In this document: one piece after another, positions 4,785 through 14,112 of the stretch
How the letters are laid out: each line of letters starts with the position of its first letter
How positions within the stretch are numbered: position 1 is the stretch's first letter
Origin: Pseudofrankia saprophytica
GTDB lineage: Bacteria > Actinomycetota > Actinomycetes > Frankiales > Frankiaceae
Length of the DNA stretch: 64,000 nucleotides
Direction: 5' to 3'
Assembly (NCBI RefSeq): GCF_000235425.2
Contig: NZ_KI912266.1
Coordinates: forward strand, 6,168,029 to 6,232,028
Notes under the pieces: generated by a model
The model's input: only the letters and a program-made list of their open reading frames with translations
Databases searched by the model: none
What the model was told of the DNA's origin: nothing
Program-made: the position numbers and the translations under genes

Positions 4785-5618
4785 CTAGCGGGTGAACTCG
4801 TCGGTGGCTGCCGGTTCCTCGCCGGGTCGGTAGGCGGCGAGGGTCAGACGGTCCCAGCGGCGGCCTTGGTAGTAGTCGTGGTCGCGTAGCCGAGCCTCGA
4901 TGTGTAGCGCCCGGCCCGCCGCGCTGGCGAACTGGGTGAAGTTGAACTCCGGCAGTTCCAGGTAGAGCTTGCGAAGTGGCCAGACGTCGAACAGGTAGTT
5001 GATGAACAGCCGGACCGGCTCGGCGGCGAGGCCCGTGCCCAGATACTGGCCGGCCATCACGGCGCCGACGTAGGCGTGACCGAGGTTGAGGTCCGGGTTG
5101 TAGCAGATCACGTGCCCGGCCGGCTGGCTCGTCTCGATCGACTCGACCAGAAACTGCGCGAGCATGCCCTGCCAGAGTTCCTGCTCGAACTGCTGGTACG
5201 CCGGCACCGACCCGCGATAACGCCAGCGGAACCCGATATCCGGGCTGACCGACAGGCTGTAGAGAAACGGCGTCGCCTGCGGCAGTACCGGCGTCAACCG
5301 AAAGTACTTTCCTTCCAGGCGGACAGGCGACACATCATTGTCCGTCGCACCAAGATCCGCTACTGCCGCGGGCAGCGAACCGGTGACGGCCTTGGAACGA
5401 TCGAGATAGTGATCGTAAAGCTCGCCGACCGTGGTGGACGAAAGCCACTCCCGCTCGCCCAGATCCACCCCGAGCTCGGCGATTCCCCCGGCCAGTTCCA
5501 GCAGTCCGAACGAGTCCAGTCCCAGGTCGGCATCCAGCCTCGATCCACCGGTCAACCTGGCCCGCGGCACCCCAGTCCGTCTACTGACCAGATCCTCGAA
5601 GTCGTCCTTGGTAAGCAT
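4785..5618 (-). CDS. Acyl carrier protein fused to a GNAT acyltransferase
   Basis: 277 residues in two parts. Residues 1-75 are an acyl carrier protein with the phosphopantetheine motif LGLDSFGLLEL (Ser36). After a linker, residues about 100-270 match the GNAT fold of the RimJ/RimL type, with an acetyl-CoA-loop-like stretch (GAVMAGQYLGTGLAAEPVRL) and a C-terminal YYQGRRWDRLTLAAYR motif. It is the first gene of the operon, before the acyl-AMP ligase. A simple reading is that the ligase loads a fatty acid on Ser36 and the GNAT domain passes the acyl group to an amine, with P450 oxidation before or after. The fusion makes transfer in cis plausible. The acceptor is unknown, and the GNAT part could instead act as a loading or decarboxylating domain. 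Confidence 0.85.
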   Translation of the reverse strand: MLTKDDFEDLVSRRTGVPRARLTGGSRLDADLGLDSFGLLELAGGIAELGVDLGEREWLSSTTVGELYDHYLDRSKAVTGSLPAAVADLGATDNDVSPVRLEGKYFRLTPVLPQATPFLYSLSVSPDIGFRWRYRGSVPAYQQFEQELWQGMLAQFLVESIETSQPAGHVICYNPDLNLGHAYVGAVMAGQYLGTGLAAEPVRLFINYLFDVWPLRKLYLELPEFNFTQFASAAGRALHIEARLRDHDYYQGRRWDRLTLAAYRPGEEPAATDEFTR

Positions 5619-5646
5619 CGGTCCTCCGATACGGAAACTGGGCCCG

Positions 5647-5680
5647 CGAGGGCCGGGGGCAGCACTGTCCCCGGCCCTCG
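5647..5680 (-). terminator. Hairpin terminator between secreted-protein genes and the ACP operon
   Basis: Perfect 12-bp arms (CGAGGGCCGGGG and complement) with a 10-nt loop, placed about 65 bp after the stop of the secreted protein and just upstream of the ACP-GNAT gene. It would insulate the acyl operon from upstream minus-strand transcription. Confidence 0.7.
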
Positions 5681-5743
5681 ACCTCAGGATCGTCGGGCGC
5701 GTCGACTACCAGTCGCGCCGGTCACGCACAGTTAAGGATGTTA

Positions 5744-6241
5744 CTAGTGCAGGCCGCAGTAAATGGAGGCCACCGGGGAGACCGCGCCTCGGGTTATGGA
5801 CCCAGAAGTCGCGATCACCGAAGTTTGGAAGTTCCAGGGACCGACGTCCAACCCGGAGCAGTCATAGTTCTGGAACTCGTACCAGGAAAGATGATTGAGG
5901 GCTCCCGCGTGGCCGGTGTAGCTGCCCGATGAGAAGTCCACCCAGTCGCCGTTCACCGCCTGCTTCTTAACGACGATCGTCGCGCTGAAGGAGATCTCAC
6001 CCAGTGAGGCACAGACTACCCCAGCATACCCGTGGACGTGGAAGGTGCCCGCTGGTTCTTCGACAGGCTTGAATGACTTGAGATTGCAGGTATCCCTGAA
6101 AGCCACCTCGGTGGCCGGCGTGTTTGCCGGCGGCGGCCCCGATTCCGCCCAGGCTGGGCTGATCATGGCGGTGGAGCCGACGGCCAGCGCCACCGGCCCG
6201 GCGGCGCCGATCGTAATGCGTCGCAGCGTCTGTCCTCGCAT
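5744..6241 (-). CDS. Secreted small protein with four cysteines, unknown function
   Basis: 165 residues. A Sec signal peptide is clear: MRGQTLRR, a hydrophobic run to about residue 30 and an AWA-ES cleavage site. The mature part is about 133 residues, rich in aromatic and small residues, and has four cysteines (DTCN, VVCA, YDCS, IYCG) that could form two disulfides. Segments such as ISFSATIVVKKQ and WNFQTSVIATSG look like beta strands. No enzyme motif is seen. It sits 58 bp after another small secreted four-cysteine protein on the same strand, so the two are probably co-transcribed. I do not recognise a family. Confidence 0.65.
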   Translation of the reverse strand: MRGQTLRRITIGAAGPVALAVGSTAMISPAWAESGPPPANTPATEVAFRDTCNLKSFKPVEEPAGTFHVHGYAGVVCASLGEISFSATIVVKKQAVNGDWVDFSSGSYTGHAGALNHLSWYEFQNYDCSGLDVGPWNFQTSVIATSGSITRGAVSPVASIYCGLH

Positions 6242-6299
6242 GACACCTCAGTTCCTCAAGGATGTGATGGCCGTGAAGGATGTGACGGACGTGCTGGAT

Positions 6300-6626
6300 C
6301 TAGGTGTACTTCAGGAATTGGTAGATGGCCGCGGTCGCTCTGTCGCCCGTGTTGCAGTACACGGTCGAGGGGTTGGGAATGCCAGTCCACGGCCCGTAGC
6401 GCAGGTAGGTGGTCGTGGTACTCCCCAACCTGCAGGTCACCCTGACCCGATGGTTCCCGGTGCCCGTCTTGCAGATCGATGTGCCGTACCCGGTCGAGCC
6501 GCTGGTACCGATCCGGGCAGTGCAGTTCTGTGGGATCGCCTGCGCGGGTGCGGCCAGGGTCAACGAGACGATGGCGAGCATGATGAATCCGAACATGACA
6601 ACCGCGATCTTCTTAAATTCCCGCAA
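6300..6626 (-). CDS. Secreted small four-cysteine protein
   Basis: 108 residues if started at the TTG at 6626, which has a GAGG motif a few bases upstream and gives a clean signal peptide: REFKK, a hydrophobic core MFGFIMLAIVSLTLAA and an AQA-IP cleavage site. A longer start at 6695 would put arginine-rich residues in front of the signal peptide and looks less likely. The mature part of about 78 residues has four cysteines (NCTA, ICKT, TCRL, YCNT) and many Gly, Thr and Tyr. Size and disulfides are those of small secreted beta-rich proteins or bacteriocin-like peptides, but there is no specific match. Its neighbour at 5744 has the same design. Confidence 0.6.
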   Translation of the reverse strand: MREFKKIAVVMFGFIMLAIVSLTLAAPAQAIPQNCTARIGTSGSTGYGTSICKTGTGNHRVRVTCRLGSTTTTYLRYGPWTGIPNPSTVYCNTGDRATAAIYQFLKYT

Positions 6627-6716
6627 TTTACCTCGTCTCCGTCGGGGGCGCCTTAATACCCAGGATGACGATGCAAAGATACAGGAAATGAACATCTCGG
6701 ACTATTAGGGGAAACC

Positions 6717-8699
6717 CTAGATCATGGCCGCGCCGACCGAGTTCAGCGGCAGGGAGATGATGAGGCTGGTTCCACTCCCCGCCGCGCTACGCAGGGATAG
6801 CGAGCCACCGGCGGCCGTCACCCGCTCCTGAAGGCCGGCGAGTCCCCCGCCAGGGGGGATGTGAGCGCCGCCGCGGCCGTCGTCGGCGACCTCCCCGACC
6901 AGGCGACCTGTCGTCACGTGGACCCGCACCCGCACGGCGTCGGTCGCGGCGTGTTTGGCGGCGTTGGTCAGGCCTTCAAGCAGTGCGAAGTACATCAGCC
7001 GCTCGGTGGCGGGCGCGAGCGTCGGTTCGTCAGCGTCCATCCGCGGCCGAAGGCCCAGCCGGGTTCCCACGGCCAGCACCGCCGCCCGCAGGCCGACCTC
7101 ACTGAGTTCGACCGGATGCAGACCGCGGGCGACGTCCCGGGCCTCGTCCCCGACCGCGCGGATACCGTCGCGGATGTCGGCGACCAGGCGCCCAGCCGCC
7201 GGAGCGGACGATGATTCGGCCAACCGGACCGCCAGCGCGTCAAGGTCGGCGAGTCGGCTGGCCAGGCCGGTGGCAAGGTCTCGTTCGAGCCGGCGACGCT
7301 CGTCGGCTTCGGCGTCGGCCACCCGCTGGTTGGCCTGTGCCGTCTGCGCCAGTCTCGCCTGCAACCCGCTCTGCAATGCGATGTTGCGCAGCCAGGGGGT
7401 ACTGGTCGTCAGGATAGAAAGGACGGCGACCTCGTGGCCGCGCAGGCGTTGGTCGCAGTCGATCAGCGCGACCGGCTCTGGACCGGATACGGGGACTGCG
7501 ACTCGCCAGCGCCCGCCGGATGGCGTTCGCGCGCCGATGGTCGCGATCGACCTGGGCTTGTGACGGTGGCTGGATGCGGCACCGAGGCCGGTCGCTGGTG
7601 TTCGGGAACCGAGGACGACCTTGTCGGGAGCGGGCTCGCCGTCGACGTCGACGTACCGGTTCTCGTCCGTGAGCCAGAGGTAGACATCGAGCGACGGGTC
7701 GCGCAGGACGGCACGCAGCGTCGTCCTCGTGGTGGTCGCCGTCGGTGGGTGGGTCTGCCGCAGCAACCGTTGTGCCCGCGACGGGAGTGCGAGGCGCAGG
7801 TAGGCCGTGGCGACGAGCAGCGCGGCCGGTCCGACGGCCAGTGCCCCGCCTTGCAGCGCGAAGCCATGCGGCAGCCCGTCCAGCTGGGATGGGCGGATGG
7901 GATCCGTGACGACCAGTGCGGTACCGAATCCGGCGAGACCGGTCGCGAGCAGTACCGGAACGAACACGACTCGGTCGAGACCGTGAACGTGATCCAGGCG
8001 TCGACGGAGCGCCAGCATAGTGATCACGATGCAGAGCAGGACGCATCCTCCGGCGACGGCTACCAGCAGCGGGTGGAACAGCCGGAGCGAGATCAGCGCC
8101 GGTCTCGGCCAGTAGGTGTCAGGGTCGAAACCGTTCCACTCGGGGCGCGAGGTCACCACGATCAGGATGTGGCCGCCAACGAGAGCCGGCCCGCTGGCGG
8201 TGACGACCGCCGTGTCGAGCCGGCCGAGTATCCGCCCGTCGGGATAGGTCAGCACCAGCCAGGCCTGGAAGAACCAGCACAACGGCTGGATCAGGAACCC
8301 GGCCAGCGGAGCGGGTCCGGCGTCCCAGCTCATCAGCCACGACAGGGACCAGCAGACACCTGTGGCCAGGAGCAGGAAGCCCAGCACACGGGACCGGGCG
8401 GACAGACAGCGGGCTGAGAGGACGAGTGCCGCCATGTTCAGGGCGTTCACGACGGCGAGCGCCGGATGATCGGACCAGAACGGCCAACCCGCCAGGAGGC
8501 CAAGCACGGCGGCCACGGCGGCCACCGCCCCGCCGAACCGGTGTCGCTGGCCGGCTGGCGGCGCGACGGGATCCGACGGTCGCGCCCCCGCTGGCCATCC
8601 CTCTCGAACGGCCCGTCGTGCCTGCGCCTGCGCCTGCGCCCGCGCCGCCTCCGCCGGTGTCGCGGGTGGGGCCGCGGTCGCCCAATGCGCCTGCCTCAC
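6717..8699 (-). CDS. NarL-family sensor histidine kinase lacking the phospho-acceptor His
   Basis: About 660 residues. The N-terminal half has roughly eight membrane helices (for example VLGFLLLATGVCWSLSWLM), followed by a GAF-like sensor region. The dimerisation helix reads RRRLERDLATGLASRL where the family has RRxxERxLHDGxQQRL: the His is Ala476 and the following Asp is Thr. The ATPase part looks intact, with N-box LTNAAKHA (Asn579), G1 box VADDGRGG and G2 box GGGLAGLQERV. It could bind ATP but cannot phosphorylate itself on this site. GTG at 8699 overlaps the stop of the upstream paralogue (GTGA), and GTG at 8705 is an alternative, so the two are co-translated. An AQAQAQA repeat lies in the N-terminus. 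The upstream paralogue has the opposite defect. Confidence 0.85.
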   Translation of the reverse strand: MRQAHWATAAPPATPAEAARAQAQAQARRAVREGWPAGARPSDPVAPPAGQRHRFGGAVAAVAAVLGLLAGWPFWSDHPALAVVNALNMAALVLSARCLSARSRVLGFLLLATGVCWSLSWLMSWDAGPAPLAGFLIQPLCWFFQAWLVLTYPDGRILGRLDTAVVTASGPALVGGHILIVVTSRPEWNGFDPDTYWPRPALISLRLFHPLLVAVAGGCVLLCIVITMLALRRRLDHVHGLDRVVFVPVLLATGLAGFGTALVVTDPIRPSQLDGLPHGFALQGGALAVGPAALLVATAYLRLALPSRAQRLLRQTHPPTATTTRTTLRAVLRDPSLDVYLWLTDENRYVDVDGEPAPDKVVLGSRTPATGLGAASSHRHKPRSIATIGARTPSGGRWRVAVPVSGPEPVALIDCDQRLRGHEVAVLSILTTSTPWLRNIALQSGLQARLAQTAQANQRVADAEADERRRLERDLATGLASRLADLDALAVRLAESSSAPAAGRLVADIRDGIRAVGDEARDVARGLHPVELSEVGLRAAVLAVGTRLGLRPRMDADEPTLAPATERLMYFALLEGLTNAAKHAATDAVRVRVHVTTGRLVGEVADDGRGGAHIPPGGGLAGLQERVTAAGGSLSLRSAAGSGTSLIISLPLNSVGAAMI

Positions 8700-10648
8700 G
8701 CGCACGGAACACGCACCTGGACGCCGACGCCGCGCCGAGGTCGGGCGAAGCGCGTCACGCTGCCGCCGAGCGCGCGAATGCGGTCGGCCGCCACCCCCAG
8801 CTCACCCTCGTGGAAACCATTCGGACGCTCGCGGCTGGCGGGACGGTCCATCGCGGCGGGAGCCGCCCACACGATGTCGCCCACGAGCTCGGTGCCGGCG
8901 ACCCGGACGTCGATGCGCACGTACCCCGGTGGCCTGAGACCGAGGTCGTCGAAGCCGGCTCGGTCCAGATCGGGCTCGTCCTGTGGGGCCCGCAGGGCGA
9001 GATCGTCCAGTACCGCGGTCAGGGCCAGGTACATGGCGAGCTCGACGCCCGGGCGGTACCGCCGGTCACTGATGCGAAACACCACCGGGAGGGCCATTGA
9101 ACCGGCAGCCTGCTCGAGCGCGACGCGCAACCCGTCCCGGCCCAGTTCGACGGGGTGTAGCCCCTGGCCGATGGCACGCAACCAGCCGGTCGCCGCACGT
9201 AGCCGGTGACGCATCTCCCGCAGGATGTCCGCGTCCGCGGGATCGGTGACCATGCCCTCGAGAACACTGGTCGTCATGGTCAGAGCGATCAGCCGTTGCT
9301 GGAGCCCATCGTGGAGCTCCCGCTCGATCCGGGCCCGCTCCCGCGCCGCCGCGTCCGCGGTCCGCCGCCTCGCGTCCGCCAGGCGGGTGAGCTCCGTCTG
9401 GAGAGCGGACTGCAGCTGTGCATTCTCCAGCGCGAGCATGATCGTCGAGATCGCGGCGTCGACCAGCACGCCGTGGCGACGGAGCGCTGGATCCACGCTG
9501 ATCGTCGCGACGATCCCGTCCTGCGGGGAACGGACGTCGACGAGCCAGCGGACTTCGTCCCGTTTCGGCTCCGGCCTCTGGTGGGACCCGCTGGGCGGCT
9601 CGGACGGCCGAGCCGCGCTGTTCTGGTGCCAGCCCGCCTCGTCGGGTGCGCCCCGGCGGCTGGCGGCCCGACCCGCGACGAGCTGACCGGTGACTGGGTC
9701 GAGCCGCTCGTGCCGCGGGTCCCAGTAGTGGATCTCCAGGGTGTCGTCGCGCAGCACCGTCCGCAGGCCGGCCCGGACGGCGGCGACCGTCGGCGTTCGC
9801 ACCAGCTCTCCGAGGCGGTCCGCGGCGCTCGCCGCGGTGTAGTGCCGGTGGATCGTCACACTGACCAGGGCCAGCGGGGCGACGCTGGACGCGGCGCCCT
9901 GCACTGCCAGTGTGTCGAGGGTGTCGGCCAGGCTCACGTACGTGGCCTGGTATCCGCGCGTAATCATGGCGGCCATGGCGGCCATGGCGGCCGGACCCGC
10001 CGACAGCAGCACCGGACCGGCGAGGCGTCGTTCGAGTCCTCTCATCGCACGGAAGCTACGTACGGTGAGCACGACGAACATCGTTATGAGCGTGACGTCG
10101 CACGCGGCGACAACCTGGTACACCCGCTCGAACGCTTCCCGGTCGGCCAGTAGCGCCGGCCAGATGGCGGCGGGAGAGAACCCGTTCCAGCTTGGACGCG
10201 ACGTCACCGTGATCGCGATCTGACCACCAAAGAGGTCCGCCGCCAGCAGAGCGACGAAAATCCGATCCCATCGTGAAGGGAGCCGATCGGTGGGGTAGGT
10301 CAGCACGCCCCAGAGGAAAGTGAGCCAGTAAAGGCACCAGGCGAACGTCGCGAGCACCGGCAGAGCACCGACGTTCCAGGCCATGAGCCAGGACAGCGCC
10401 AATGACAGCCCCGCCGTGGTGAAAAGCAGACCGTGACGCCGCGTGGTGGCGCTGGTCAGGGCCACCACGCCGGCCACCGATATGGACGTACCGACGGTGA
10501 CGTTCACGGCCGCCATCAGCGGACGGGCCGACCAATAGGGCCAGCTGGCTTCGGTTGTCACCGCGACGGTAAGCACGGCGGTGGCGAGCACGGTGCCGGC
10601 TAGCCGGAGCCGACGCGACCGCATCTCCACGCCGGCCCCAGCTCGCAT
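8696..10648 (-). CDS. NarL-family sensor histidine kinase with degenerate ATP-binding domain
   Basis: 650 residues. The membrane half is clearly paralogous to the downstream kinase (both carry VTSRPxWNGF, LSWLMxW and VLTYP motifs in the same order). The phospho-acceptor motif is intact, ARIERELHDGLQQRLIAL with His446. The ATPase region is eroded: the N-box position reads TAVLDDLAL without Asn, the DxGxG position reads DIVWAAPAAM, and the glycine-rich lid is missing, although the closing ADRIRALGG is still recognisable. It should accept phosphate but is unlikely to bind ATP. A (GCCATGGCG)n microrepeat encodes MAAMAAMAA in the membrane part. It is divergent from the response regulator at 10867, with a shared promoter region of about 220 bp. 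Confidence 0.85.
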   Translation of the reverse strand: MRAGAGVEMRSRRLRLAGTVLATAVLTVAVTTEASWPYWSARPLMAAVNVTVGTSISVAGVVALTSATTRRHGLLFTTAGLSLALSWLMAWNVGALPVLATFAWCLYWLTFLWGVLTYPTDRLPSRWDRIFVALLAADLFGGQIAITVTSRPSWNGFSPAAIWPALLADREAFERVYQVVAACDVTLITMFVVLTVRSFRAMRGLERRLAGPVLLSAGPAAMAAMAAMITRGYQATYVSLADTLDTLAVQGAASSVAPLALVSVTIHRHYTAASAADRLGELVRTPTVAAVRAGLRTVLRDDTLEIHYWDPRHERLDPVTGQLVAGRAASRRGAPDEAGWHQNSAARPSEPPSGSHQRPEPKRDEVRWLVDVRSPQDGIVATISVDPALRRHGVLVDAAISTIMLALENAQLQSALQTELTRLADARRRTADAAARERARIERELHDGLQQRLIALTMTTSVLEGMVTDPADADILREMRHRLRAATGWLRAIGQGLHPVELGRDGLRVALEQAAGSMALPVVFRISDRRYRPGVELAMYLALTAVLDDLALRAPQDEPDLDRAGFDDLGLRPPGYVRIDVRVAGTELVGDIVWAAPAAMDRPASRERPNGFHEGELGVAADRIRALGGSVTRFARPRRGVGVQVRVPCA

Positions 10649-10866
10649 GATTCAGATCTACCGTTTGGCCGGCGTTCTGACCACTTTTGTCGGGTTCGCG
10701 CTTGTCGCGGCGGCGTTCCCCGCGGGCGATCTGGTCCGAGGGCCCGGATCGCCGCGTGTGCCGGATCCGGATGCGAGACTGGACCGCGCGACGGCCCTGG
10801 GCGGCGACGGCCGCGACCGCCCGCACCGCTCAGCCCGTCCCACACGTCGAAAGCGAGAAACCACCT

Positions 10867-11592
10867 GTGCCTCCGAAGCCGATGCGGGTGGCGATCGCCG
10901 AGGACAGTGGTGTCATCCGGGAGGCACTCGGTCTGCTCCTGACCAGCATCGGTGTCGACGTCACCGGCTCTACTGCCACCGGTGAGGAACTGCTGGCCGC
11001 CGCCCTGACGGACCCGCCCGACGTGGCGATCGTGGACATGCGCATGCCGCCGACACGCACCAACGAAGGCGTCGTCACCGCGCTCGCGCTGAAGGCGTCC
11101 CAGCCGCGAATGGGGGTGCTCGTCGTAACAGCGCACGACGACGATCCCTTTACTTCGGGCCTGTTCGCGAATGGAGCCGCCGGTCTCGGATACATGCGAA
11201 AGGACAACATCGCCGACCGGACCGCGCTGCAGCAGGTGCTCCTCCGACTGGCGAACGGCGAAGCCGTGATCGACGCCGGCGTCACGACACGAGCACTGCA
11301 CCGTACCCGCGATATCGATCGAACCCATACGCTGTCCGACCGTGAACGCCTCATCCTCGACCTGATGGCGCAGGGCCGTTCCAATGCCGGCATTGCCAAG
11401 CAGACGCACGTCAGCCTGAAGACCGTCGAGGCTCACATCGCGAAAATCTTCCTGAAGCTGGGCCTGCGTTCCGGAGATGCCGACAACCGCCGGGTGCTGG
11501 CGGTACTGACCTGGTTGCAGGCGGCCGCTGGCCCACCGGCGGGGCCGCTCACGACCGGCTCGGTCGCCGGGGAGGCCCGCCTACCGCCGTGA
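10867..11592 (+). CDS. LuxR/NarL-family response regulator
   Basis: About 241 residues. The receiver domain has the acidic pair in VAIAEDSG, the phospho-acceptor Asp in VAIVDMRMP, the Thr in VVTAHDDD and the Lys in YMRKDNI. The C-terminal output domain is a LuxR helix-turn-helix: LSDRERLILDLMAQGRSN, then AGIAKQTHVSLKTVEAHIAK. The reading frame extends upstream to 10687, but that part has poor coding character and overlaps the divergent promoter. GTG at 10867 or ATG at 10882 puts the start directly before the receiver domain. It is the obvious partner of the two divergent kinases. Targets are unknown; autoregulation through the shared intergenic region is likely. Confidence 0.9.
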   Translation: MPPKPMRVAIAEDSGVIREALGLLLTSIGVDVTGSTATGEELLAAALTDPPDVAIVDMRMPPTRTNEGVVTALALKASQPRMGVLVVTAHDDDPFTSGLFANGAAGLGYMRKDNIADRTALQQVLLRLANGEAVIDAGVTTRALHRTRDIDRTHTLSDRERLILDLMAQGRSNAGIAKQTHVSLKTVEAHIAKIFLKLGLRSGDADNRRVLAVLTWLQAAAGPPAGPLTTGSVAGEARLPP

Positions 11593-12106
11593 GGGAGGCT
11601 CGGCTACCGCCGCGAGCAGGGTGGGCACGGAGGTGCGTCGACGTCCTCCAGCGCCGGGACACTCACGTCCACGATGACGATCCCGGCCTTCTCGCGCCCC
11701 CATGCTTCCCCGTGGGCACCATCGTCGGGGTCGCCGCCGCGCTCACCGACGTCAGACCCAGCGTGATTACGATCCGTCGTCAATCATGCACGGCTCAACC
11801 GGCCTCTGATGGCCGATCGCGAGGACCCTGGACTAGTCCCCTGGGGTCCTGACCGCCACCCGCGAGGTGCGGCCTCCCCCCAGAAAGCTGATCCGTGGTA
11901 GATGAGTCAGCCCATAGACGCGGCTATCCGACACACTCACCCACTGCCTTGGTCGATCGTGTCAGCTCAGCCGGTCCATGGGCACCGTCATCTGCCACAG
12001 AACACGGTGGAGGAGTGTTCGGTTGGACGGGTGGCCCGCCTTGTCAGCCGTCTGCCGCGCGGCTTCCGGTCCGGTCCGGTCCCGCCCGCTTTCAGCGGCG
12101 CGAGGG
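11593..12106. other. 514-bp gap with a nested palindrome and no convincing gene
   Basis: No frame here has convincing coding character. At 11822-11850 a nested palindrome has outer arms AGGACCC/GGGTCCT and an inner GGACTAGTCC. It may end the response-regulator transcript or bind a regulator. A short minus-strand stretch near 11660-11690 reads GIVIVDVSVP, reminiscent of a receiver domain, but too short to call. Confidence 0.5.
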
Positions 12107-12850
12107 TCAGTGAGTATCGAGGAGCGTCGGGTCGGCGCGGAGCTCGGCGCGGACGGCGGACTCCCAGAAGCCGATGAAGCCGTTGCCGTCAGAGTTCTTC
12201 ATGTGGTTCAGGAAGCCGGTCGGTAGCACCGGCGCCGGGGCGGCGCCGAGGGCACGGACGTGCCAGGCACGCTGGCAGCGCTGTTCGAGCGCGACGGCGC
12301 GCTGGAACAGCGCCCGTGCCGAGGTGCCGAGGACGAAGACGCCGTGGCCGGCGAGCAGCGCGAGGTGGCCGCCGTGCAGGGCGTCGACCGCGCCGCGGGC
12401 GGTGGCGAGATCGTTGACGGGGCCCTCGTACTCGTTCACCAGCACCAGGTCGCCACCGCCGCCGAGCGCGGAGCTCTGGTCGTAGATCGGTGGGATCTCG
12501 CCCAGGTCCGCCCAGACCGTGCCGTACAGCGGGTGGTTGTGGACGGCCCAGGTGACGTCGGTGCGGGCGGCGTGCAGGGCGAGGTGCAGCGGGATGCCGA
12601 GCGGGACCGGCCAGTCGCCCTCGAGCAGCTTGCCGTCCAGGTCGATCCGGATGATCTGCTCGGGGCGCAGCTCGTCCCAGCGGACCAGCCACGGGTTGCA
12701 CAGCAGGGTGCCGTCGGGCTGTAACGCGGTGATGTGGCCGGCCAGGTGGTCGTTGTAGCCCTCCCGCCACAGGGCGCGGGCGAGCAGGACGATCTCCTCG
12801 CGGGTGGTGAGCTCCGGCATCAGCTTCTCGGCCGTCGGGATGAACGTCAC
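12107..12850 (-). CDS. Class II aldolase/adducin family protein
   Basis: 247 residues from the GTG at 12850, which has a GGAGG ribosome site eight bases upstream. Starts further upstream would overlap the preceding amidohydrolase. The family core is visible: LARALWREGYNDHLAGHIT, a zinc-ligand region VHNHPLYGTVWA and LAGHGVFVLG, which give the metal-binding histidines of fuculose-phosphate-aldolase-type enzymes. These cleave or epimerise hydroxy-acid and sugar-phosphate substrates through a metal-stabilised enolate; many actinobacterial members of this type lie in catabolic clusters. It is the last gene of the seven-gene minus-strand operon and presumably cleaves a late intermediate. The substrate is not predictable. 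Confidence 0.85.
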   Translation of the reverse strand: MTFIPTAEKLMPELTTREEIVLLARALWREGYNDHLAGHITALQPDGTLLCNPWLVRWDELRPEQIIRIDLDGKLLEGDWPVPLGIPLHLALHAARTDVTWAVHNHPLYGTVWADLGEIPPIYDQSSALGGGGDLVLVNEYEGPVNDLATARGAVDALHGGHLALLAGHGVFVLGTSARALFQRAVALEQRCQRAWHVRALGAAPAPVLPTGFLNHMKNSDGNGFIGFWESAVRAELRADPTLLDTH

Positions 12851-12888
12851 GGGTTTGCCCTCCAGGCGGTCCAGGGGGATCAGGGGGT

Positions 12889-14112
12889 TCAGCCGGCCGG
12901 CAGGACGGTCGGCGGGAGGGGGTGGCGGAACAGGGCCGCGGCGTTCTCGCTGCACATCGCCCGGATCTCGGCGGGCGGGATGTGGCCCCAGGCGTCGGCG
13001 AGGACCTGCTGGGTGTCAGGCCAGGTGCCGTCACCGTGCGGGTAGTCGGTCTCGACCATGATGTTCTCGACGCCGATGTGGTGGCGGGTGTCGATCGTCG
13101 ACGGGTCGTCGATGGTGCAGAACCAGAAGTTGCGGCGCAGCACCTCGGCGGGGCGAAGGTCCCAGCCGAGGCCGTAGCCGGACCGGTCGACGATGTTGTC
13201 GAGCCGGTCGAGCAGCATCGCGACCCAGCCGATCCCGCCCTCGCTCATCGCGATCTTCAGGGTCGGGAACCGGGCCGGGTACTCCGACCACAGCCACTCG
13301 GCGCAGGCGGTGAGCGACGCCTGGCCGAACAGCGTCGAGCCGAGCTGCAGGCCGGGCGCACCCGGCGGCTTCTCGGACAGGCCGGCGCTGCCGACGTGCA
13401 GGGTGACGACGGTGTCGGTCTCGACGCAGGCCTGGATGATCGGGTCCCAGTGGTCGCGGTCCCACAGCGACGGCAGGCCGATGACGTGTGGGCGTTCCGG
13501 GAAGGTGACGGCGGTGAACCCGCGGGCGGAGTTCCGCCGGATCTCGGCGACGGCCAGTGCCGGGTCGGACAGGTGGGTGATGCCCATCGGGACGACCCGC
13601 TCGGGGTACGCCTGGAACCACTCCTCGTACAGCCAGTCGTTCCAGGCCCGCACGCAGGCGAGGCCCAGCTCCTGGTCGCGGGCGCCGAAGAACACCCGGC
13701 CGCAGAACCCGGTGATCTGCGAGGGGAAGTTCACCGACGCCCAGACCCCGCTCACGTCCATGTCCCGCACCCGGGCGTCGATGTCGTAGCAGCCGGGACG
13801 CATGTGCTCGAACCGGAACGGCTCGAGCTTCACCGAGTCGGGCCGCCGGCCGGCCACGGCGTTCATGCCGACCTGGGTGAACGTCTGTTCCTCGAACCGC
13901 CACACCTGGTGACCGCGTTCCGTCTCGACGATCCGCGGCGCCGCGTCGGCGAACCGGGCCGGGACCCGCCCGGCGAACAGGTGCGGCGGTTCCACGACGT
14001 GGTCGTCGACCGAGATGATCGTGTAGCGGACCTCGCGGGGCTCAGGCTCGGGCAGGAACAGGCTCGGGTCGAGGGCGGCCTCGCTGACGGTGGGGACGGG
14101 GGTGGTGGCCAC
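12889..14112 (-). CDS. Amidohydrolase family 2 (ACMSD-type) metal-dependent hydrolase
   Basis: 407 residues. The TIM-barrel amidohydrolase-2 family is recognised by the N-terminal metal motif SVDDHVVEPPHL, the conserved MRPGCYDIDARVRDMD segment, NFPSQITGF, the barrel histidine in VVTLHVGS and the C-terminal ETDYPHGDGTWPD motif holding the catalytic Asp. Members include decarboxylases acting on aromatic or semialdehyde carboxylates and hydrolases. ATG start. The protein is a paralogue of those at 18889 and 35150. It lies between the thiolase-like gene and the aldolase gene with short gaps, so it belongs to the catabolic operon. Decarboxylation or ring hydrolysis of a cyclic acid would fit; this is inference. 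Confidence 0.88.
   Translation of the reverse strand: MATTPVPTVSEAALDPSLFLPEPEPREVRYTIISVDDHVVEPPHLFAGRVPARFADAAPRIVETERGHQVWRFEEQTFTQVGMNAVAGRRPDSVKLEPFRFEHMRPGCYDIDARVRDMDVSGVWASVNFPSQITGFCGRVFFGARDQELGLACVRAWNDWLYEEWFQAYPERVVPMGITHLSDPALAVAEIRRNSARGFTAVTFPERPHVIGLPSLWDRDHWDPIIQACVETDTVVTLHVGSAGLSEKPPGAPGLQLGSTLFGQASLTACAEWLWSEYPARFPTLKIAMSEGGIGWVAMLLDRLDNIVDRSGYGLGWDLRPAEVLRRNFWFCTIDDPSTIDTRHHIGVENIMVETDYPHGDGTWPDTQQVLADAWGHIPPAEIRAMCSENAAALFRHPLPPTVLPAG

Follow-up and report, generated by a model that had tools for sequence, protein, structure and literature searches.

The question raised by this locus is whether two neighbouring membrane proteins that both resemble histidine kinases, HK1 and HK2, together make up a single kinase. 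They are encoded beside a response regulator gene, RR (Table 1), in the window, i.e. the whole stretch of 64,000 nucleotides that was analysed, taken from the 9.98 Mb genome of Pseudofrankia saprophytica (G000). As each has lost the half of the kinase that the other has kept, HK1 and HK2 probably work only as a pair, and we consider it likely that HK1, HK2 and RR form one signalling system with the kinase shared over two membrane proteins, in which HK1 would phosphorylate His446 of HK2 within a heterodimer and HK2 would pass the phosphate to RR.

Table 1. Features of the trio, with positions counted from the first letter of the window
Feature	Position	Strand	Description
HK1	6717..8705	minus	GTG start, 662 aa; membrane domain, linker, DHp without the phospho-accepting His, intact CA
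HK2	8696..10648	minus	ATG start, 650 aa; membrane domain as in HK1, DHp with HDxxxQ, CA remnant
HK2 end/HK1 start overlap	8696..8705	minus	10 nt; length and GTGCGCGT also in G030
RR, REC-LuxR response regulator	10867..11592	plus	Divergent from HK2 and HK1; Pfam REC plus GerE/LuxR

Motifs kept and lost in the window

The only Pfam match of HK1 above the cut-off is to HATPase_c (E 1.5e-7), with none to HisKA_3, and that of HK2 is to HisKA_3 (E 8.1e-11), with no HATPase_c match even with the limit set at E 10; the CheA domain set (P1 Hpt, P4, P5) is absent from both. When the two proteins are aligned, Ala478 of HK1 (codon 7272-7274) shares a column with His446 of HK2 (codon 9311-9313). The HDxxxQ site reads HDGLQQ in HK2 (H446, D447, Q451) and ATGLAS in HK1 (A478, T479, S483), and all three of its His, Asp and Gln are thus gone from HK1. 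The CA boxes are intact in HK1, with N581 (codon 6963-6965), Asp608 of the G1 box (DDGRGG) and a G2 box reading GGGLAGL, and are lost from HK2, where DD replaces TN in the N box and the G1 and G2 boxes read WAAPAA and GELGVAA. Pfam and the alignment therefore agree with the sequence-only reading, which had HK1 keeping its ATP-binding motifs with Ala in place of the phospho-acceptor His, and HK2 keeping the His after losing the Asn, DxGxG and lid motifs. Neither protein is a complete HisKA_3 (NarL/DesK-type) kinase, HK1 being without the His and HK2 without the N, G1 and G2 boxes. At the level of sequence they have what defines a split kinase, a CA without an acceptor His on one chain and an acceptor His without a working CA on its partner, as do the pairs in G030 and G015 described below. 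The DxxxQ phosphatase motif of HisKA_3 kinases is, by motif, present in HK2, where Asp447 adjoins His446 and is followed by Gln451.

The AF2 models have a mean pLDDT of 82.8 (HK1) and 81.9 (HK2), and the C-terminal part of the HK2 model still shows ATPase-like strands and helices. The best 50 Foldseek matches listed for HK2 are histidine kinases, including DesK, CheA/chemotaxis units and phytochromes, with low whole-chain TM-scores. A membrane domain common to HK1 and HK2 had also been proposed, and 80 of 244 positions are indeed identical.

On the minus strand HK2 precedes HK1, and both lie divergent from a LuxR regulator, as had been read from the letters. The overlap between them, described earlier as GTGA, is real; however, it is 10 nt if HK1 begins at the GTG at 8705 and is exactly GTGA only if HK1 begins at its third codon, which is also GTG. 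RR could also start at the Met at 10882. Its acceptor Asp, which a split kinase needs to find intact in its regulator, is kept within VDMRMPP (D57 counted from 10867, codon 11035-11037), as are the acidic pair and the Lys. Third-position GC of 0.82, 0.84 and 0.80 fits coding sequence. Two small ORFs (P0004 and P0005; 5744-6241 and 6300-6695, minus strand) lie downstream of HK1 and have starts that look, by eye, like signal peptides; they were rejected as members of the system, as tblastn at E 1e-3 matched, among the loci searched, only L009, which represents the window itself. No RNA family was found at gathering score within 5000-14000 of the window.

The same trio in a second genome

Thirty-five genomes of the window's family, which were also the 35 returned by an order-level query, were searched with HK1, HK2 and a membrane-domain profile, and all counts given here are among the matches listed. 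The exact trio was found in only one other of the 35, G030, which belongs to the genus of G000. The check that the sequence-only reading had proposed, a search for pairs of orthologues that share the reciprocal loss, thus came out in its favour, with HK2 in state H+/CA- and HK1 in state H-/CA+ in G030, where the His column of HK1 holds Leu. In local alignments with their counterparts in the window, RR of G030 is 63% identical, HK2 37% and HK1 38%. The genes RR, HK2 and HK1 all lie on one strand in G030 (L046), whereas RR is divergent in the window. HK1 of G030 begins in a 10-nt overlap with the same letters as in the window, GTGCGCGT. At 393 aa (L046 8611-9792) it has an intact CA, its membrane domain is gone, and its frame is closed by a stop 30 codons upstream of the start; it is predicted to be a soluble ATPase subunit. 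The contig ends 65 bases past it.

Between G000 and G030, the two HK1 proteins are identical at 22 of 80 positions in the DHp and 61 of 117 in the CA (Fisher p 0.0007), and the two HK2 proteins at 42 of 80 in the DHp and 43 of 123 in the CA (Fisher p 0.020). At 52%, the DHp is the best-conserved domain of HK2, other parts reaching 34% to 38%, and the H-box reads ERELHDGLQQ in both genomes. The log-odds difference between HK1 and HK2 has a z of 4.15 with columns treated as independent. In all four comparisons of complete relatives the DHp is more conserved than the CA (65 to 90% versus 54 to 76%). Conservation is hence crossed, with the CA favoured in HK1 and the DHp in HK2, as a division of labour predicts.

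The most economical reading would take phosphate from the ATPase of HK1 to His446 of HK2 and from there to the Asp of RR. HK1 and HK2 would pair via their DHp helices, the CA of HK1 would bind ATP and phosphorylate His446 across the dimer, and HK2 would then transfer the phosphate to RR, which would act on DNA by way of its LuxR domain. As the sole bearer of HDxxxQ of the two, HK2 would also be the phosphatase. We infer the heterodimer, the trans phosphorylation, the phosphotransfer to RR, the phosphatase role, the order of losses and the signal alike.

Relatives, descent and competing explanations

The membrane profile gave 37 matches inside the family at E 3.6e-117 or better (15 of these rows built the profile) and was weakly met outside it (best E 1.9e-32 across 197 genomes of the class, among the matches listed); in a scan of genome contigs, HK2 matched nothing beyond two distant loci from Pseudomonas. 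The state of the His, N and G1 columns was used to sort 43 kinase ORFs from the fetched loci, leaving out L100, which a contig end cuts, and two fragments of L058; weaker relatives (E 1e-15 to 1e-36) entered this set only if they fell inside fetched loci. The 43 comprise 26 H+/CA+, 5 H+/CA-, 4 H-/CA+ and 8 H-/CA- kinases. The 24 unpaired kinases, every one of which has a nearby regulator like P0003, include 20 that are H+/CA+ (outgroup rows L051 and L056 among them) and four with neither part.

Nine adjacent pairs in the fetched loci are fully readable. None consists of two complete kinases, and all nine have at least one His and at least one CA. Three are reciprocal, namely those of the window, G030 and G015 (L054). 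Five, from genus g6 (L041, L042, L043, L047 and L048), combine a complete kinase with a CA-less half that retains its His only in L047 (G017), and one, L055 in G000, combines a complete kinase with a His-less one. Outside the nine, the pair in L058 (G020) has a complete partner that is fragmented in the assembly and a half with His. In L058 and the five g6 loci the complete kinase is followed by a half without any ATPase domain, at whose His position different genomes have H, E, G or N, and no P0003-like regulator was found in the fetched stretches (BLASTP E 1e-5). The two kinases of L055 (4284-8300) are convergent, and the match of a 120-aa ORF between them to the regulator is confined to the LuxR part.

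A tree was built on membrane and linker columns only, excluding the His and ATPase parts. HK1 of G000 and G030 join (99/94), as do HK2 of G000, G030 and four g6 rows (99/96; the HK2 clade). The HK1 and HK2 groups are sisters (95/88), and the complete and half genes of g6 form another clade (100/99). The HK1 join is one of long branches (program warning), and omitting either HK1 leaves the other placed no more precisely than within an 18-row clade; long branches hence account for part of the support for the join, gene order and the junction for the rest, and the tree by itself does not firmly establish that the two HK1 genes are orthologous. The case named beforehand as one that would speak against a divided kinase, an orthologue in which both parts are intact, was seen in neither of the two HK1 genes and in none of the six members of the HK2 clade (the window's own counted). 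HK1 and HK2 would go back to a complete kinase of this membrane-sensor family that was duplicated, with HK1 losing the His that HK2 retained. The loss of the ATPase from HK2 looks older, being common to all six HK2-clade members. Duplication had been part of the sequence-only reading and stands, though not as a recent event within the species, since HK1 and HK2 of the window as an exclusive pair were rejected (AU p 0.0029).

In G015 (L054 3968-9044) the regulator gene sits between the kinases on one strand, in the order HK2' (H+, CA-), RR, HK1' (H-, CA+), and the G1 box of HK2' is less worn (HNGRAA). Descent of this pair from the same event was rejected, with AU p values of 0.0019 for placing the H-/CA+ gene with HK1 and 1.9e-5 for placing the H+/CA- gene with the HK2 clade, both on long branches; grouping the two G015 genes together with HK1 and HK2 was rejected as well (p 0.00034). 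These rejections suggest that the duplication predates the divergence of G000 and G030 and that a reciprocal split took place a second time, independently, in G015; a single bacterial family thus seems to have made this trade-off two or more times.

The HK2 clade is itself not uniform. The His is lost too in four of its six members, all from g6 and forming one clade (L044, L045, L049 and L050, the four unpaired kinases with neither part), and no HK1 lies beside these, so it is possible for an HK2 to be retained without any phosphotransfer role. A regulator 63-65% identical to RR is kept alongside all four, and such regulators stand beside HK2-clade genes in five other genomes in total. The dN/dS of the g6 HK2 clade is 0.35 to 0.66 by domain (two pairs), compared with 0.05 to 0.19 for the DHp and CA of complete singletons (two pairs) and 0.21 and 0.40 for the complete g6 partner, and together with the retained regulator this indicates that an HK2 can persist as a scaffold. 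In the same four loci a second regulator-like gene follows, with its REC Asp intact and its DNA-binding part shortened or missing. These g6 genes, in which His and CA are both lost in four of four, are an argument for HK2 being a pseudokinase adaptor or allosteric regulator, with a leftover His and with the phosphate of RR coming from elsewhere, and adaptor or regulator roles are shown by DivL and by evolved ChrS in the available portion of PMC9491836. For the HK2 of the window we regard this as unlikely, given that the H-box is retained in both G000 and G030 and lies in the best-conserved domain.

It is also quite improbable that HK1 and HK2 each work with a different complete kinase elsewhere in the genome, HK1 serving one and HK2 receiving phosphate from another, and that they are neighbours through duplication only. 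Other partners are at hand, there being 50 HisKA_3 matches in G000, and native paralogous kinases can mix, ChrS and HrrS dimerizing in a two-hybrid assay according to what is available of PMC9491836. However, the reciprocal loss was kept jointly with the same overlap in two diverged genomes and is seen again in G015, which fits mutual dependence better. Kinases without a CA are not a common background in G000 either: 47 of its 50 HisKA_3 matches have an HATPase_c match at most 700 bp downstream (HATPase_c E up to 1), and the three exceptions are L105, whose ATPase domain is readable and was missed by Pfam, L106 and HK2, whose HisKA_3 match lies about 2.3 kb from the HATPase_c match of HK1. L106 (5147-7285, minus strand), an open frame of 712 aa that looks PAS/GAF-like by eye, terminates directly after HisKA_3 and has no HATPase_c match within 8 kb. 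Fast evolution and long branches might suggest that the two proteins are decaying copies with no function in common, but this is very unlikely given the conservation of opposite domains across G000 and G030, the open frames, the coding GC and the preserved overlap.

A divided kinase made up of HK1 and HK2 may be one case of a wider tendency, for and against which we see about even chances, of duplicated kinases of this sensor family repeatedly becoming obligate mixed dimers. Once two paralogues had paired, each pair would need no more than a single His and a single ATPase, and the surplus would be lost differently by lineage, reciprocally in G000 and G030 and independently in G015, as a complete kinase plus a half in g6, and as a complete plus a His-less kinase elsewhere in G000. 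Both membrane proteins would be needed, as a two-sensor gate, up to the soluble ATPase subunit of G030. Reciprocity does not hold throughout the wider group, the g6 HK2 clade being His-less and the separate g6 paralogous pair consisting of a complete kinase and a half without an ATPase domain.

Comparison with known split kinases

Trans complementation had been described as known for engineered kinases and natural pairs as uncommon, which needs correction since natural split kinases (CheA3/CheA4, FasB/FasC and Hik36/Hik43) are already established. Here the reciprocal trade-off seems to have evolved two or more times within one family, and a search of mostly freely accessible papers found no reciprocal pair of this sensor family. 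Split kinases were defined and characterized in Rhodobacter sphaeroides, and 1556 of 42417 HisKA proteins in SMART (3.66%) are without an HATPase domain, as stated in the accessible text of PMC3591291. In CheA3/CheA4, according to the same text, the kinase domain comes from CheA4 and the phosphorylatable His from CheA3, and neither autophosphorylates alone (PMC3591291). The ATPase and the His are on separate proteins there as in HK1/HK2, but CheA3/CheA4 belong to the CheA family and lack whole domains, unlike full-length duplicates with reciprocally decayed sites.

The nearest in design is FasB/FasC with FasA of group A Streptococcus. The available extract of PMC12675982 has FasB and FasC pairing in two-hybrid assays with each other and not with themselves, a FasC reduced to TM and DHp sufficing with His246 needed and its ATPase domain dispensable, and DHp plus CA of FasB sufficing without the membrane part. 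From that extract, the likeness lies in two membrane kinase-like proteins with one regulator, and the G030 trio naturally has much this anatomy. The differences seen there are that FasB retains DHp histidines (H241 and H284), that both proteins are drawn with all domains, and that the regulator is ComE-like, not LuxR. FasB and FasC also belong to kinase family HPK10, unlike HK1 and HK2. In Mycobacterium tuberculosis, Rv0600c and Rv0601c are adjacent genes for an ATPase half and a His half, with one regulator, TcrA, and phosphorylation in trans. The partial source describes two kinases that cooperate with TcrA in a three-component sensor. Rv0600c and Rv0601c are two parts of one kinase, unlike the two full-length membrane sensors HK1 and HK2. 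Hik36/Hik43 with Rre6 of Synechocystis is termed a split histidine kinase in the accessible part of PMC7656254; as described there it resembles HK1/HK2 in acting with one regulator and differs in being a split CheA homologue with the two kinase genes far apart.

The closest solved kinase by sequence is DesK, matched by HK1 at E 1.8e-10 and weakly by the DHp of HK2 at E 0.028, though DesK of the Bacillus subtilis DesK/DesR system is a single complete kinase working as a homodimer. Gln193 of DesK places the dephosphorylation water, and Asp189 makes contact with the regulator when the two form the phosphatase complex, according to the available part of PMC5231405. By spacing, His188, Asp189 and Gln193 of DesK match His446, Asp447 and Gln451 of HK2, and HK1 is without matching residues. 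Natural pairs with the halves of the kinase chemistry on two sensors can be compared in this family with their complete relatives, with a membrane-less version and across losses that appear to be independent. This makes it testable whether mixed pairing came first and loss followed, and what fixes mixed over like-with-like pairing. The phosphatase motif carried by HK2 only also raises the question of whether the response is switch-like, as modelled for CheA3/CheA4 in the accessible text of PMC3591291.
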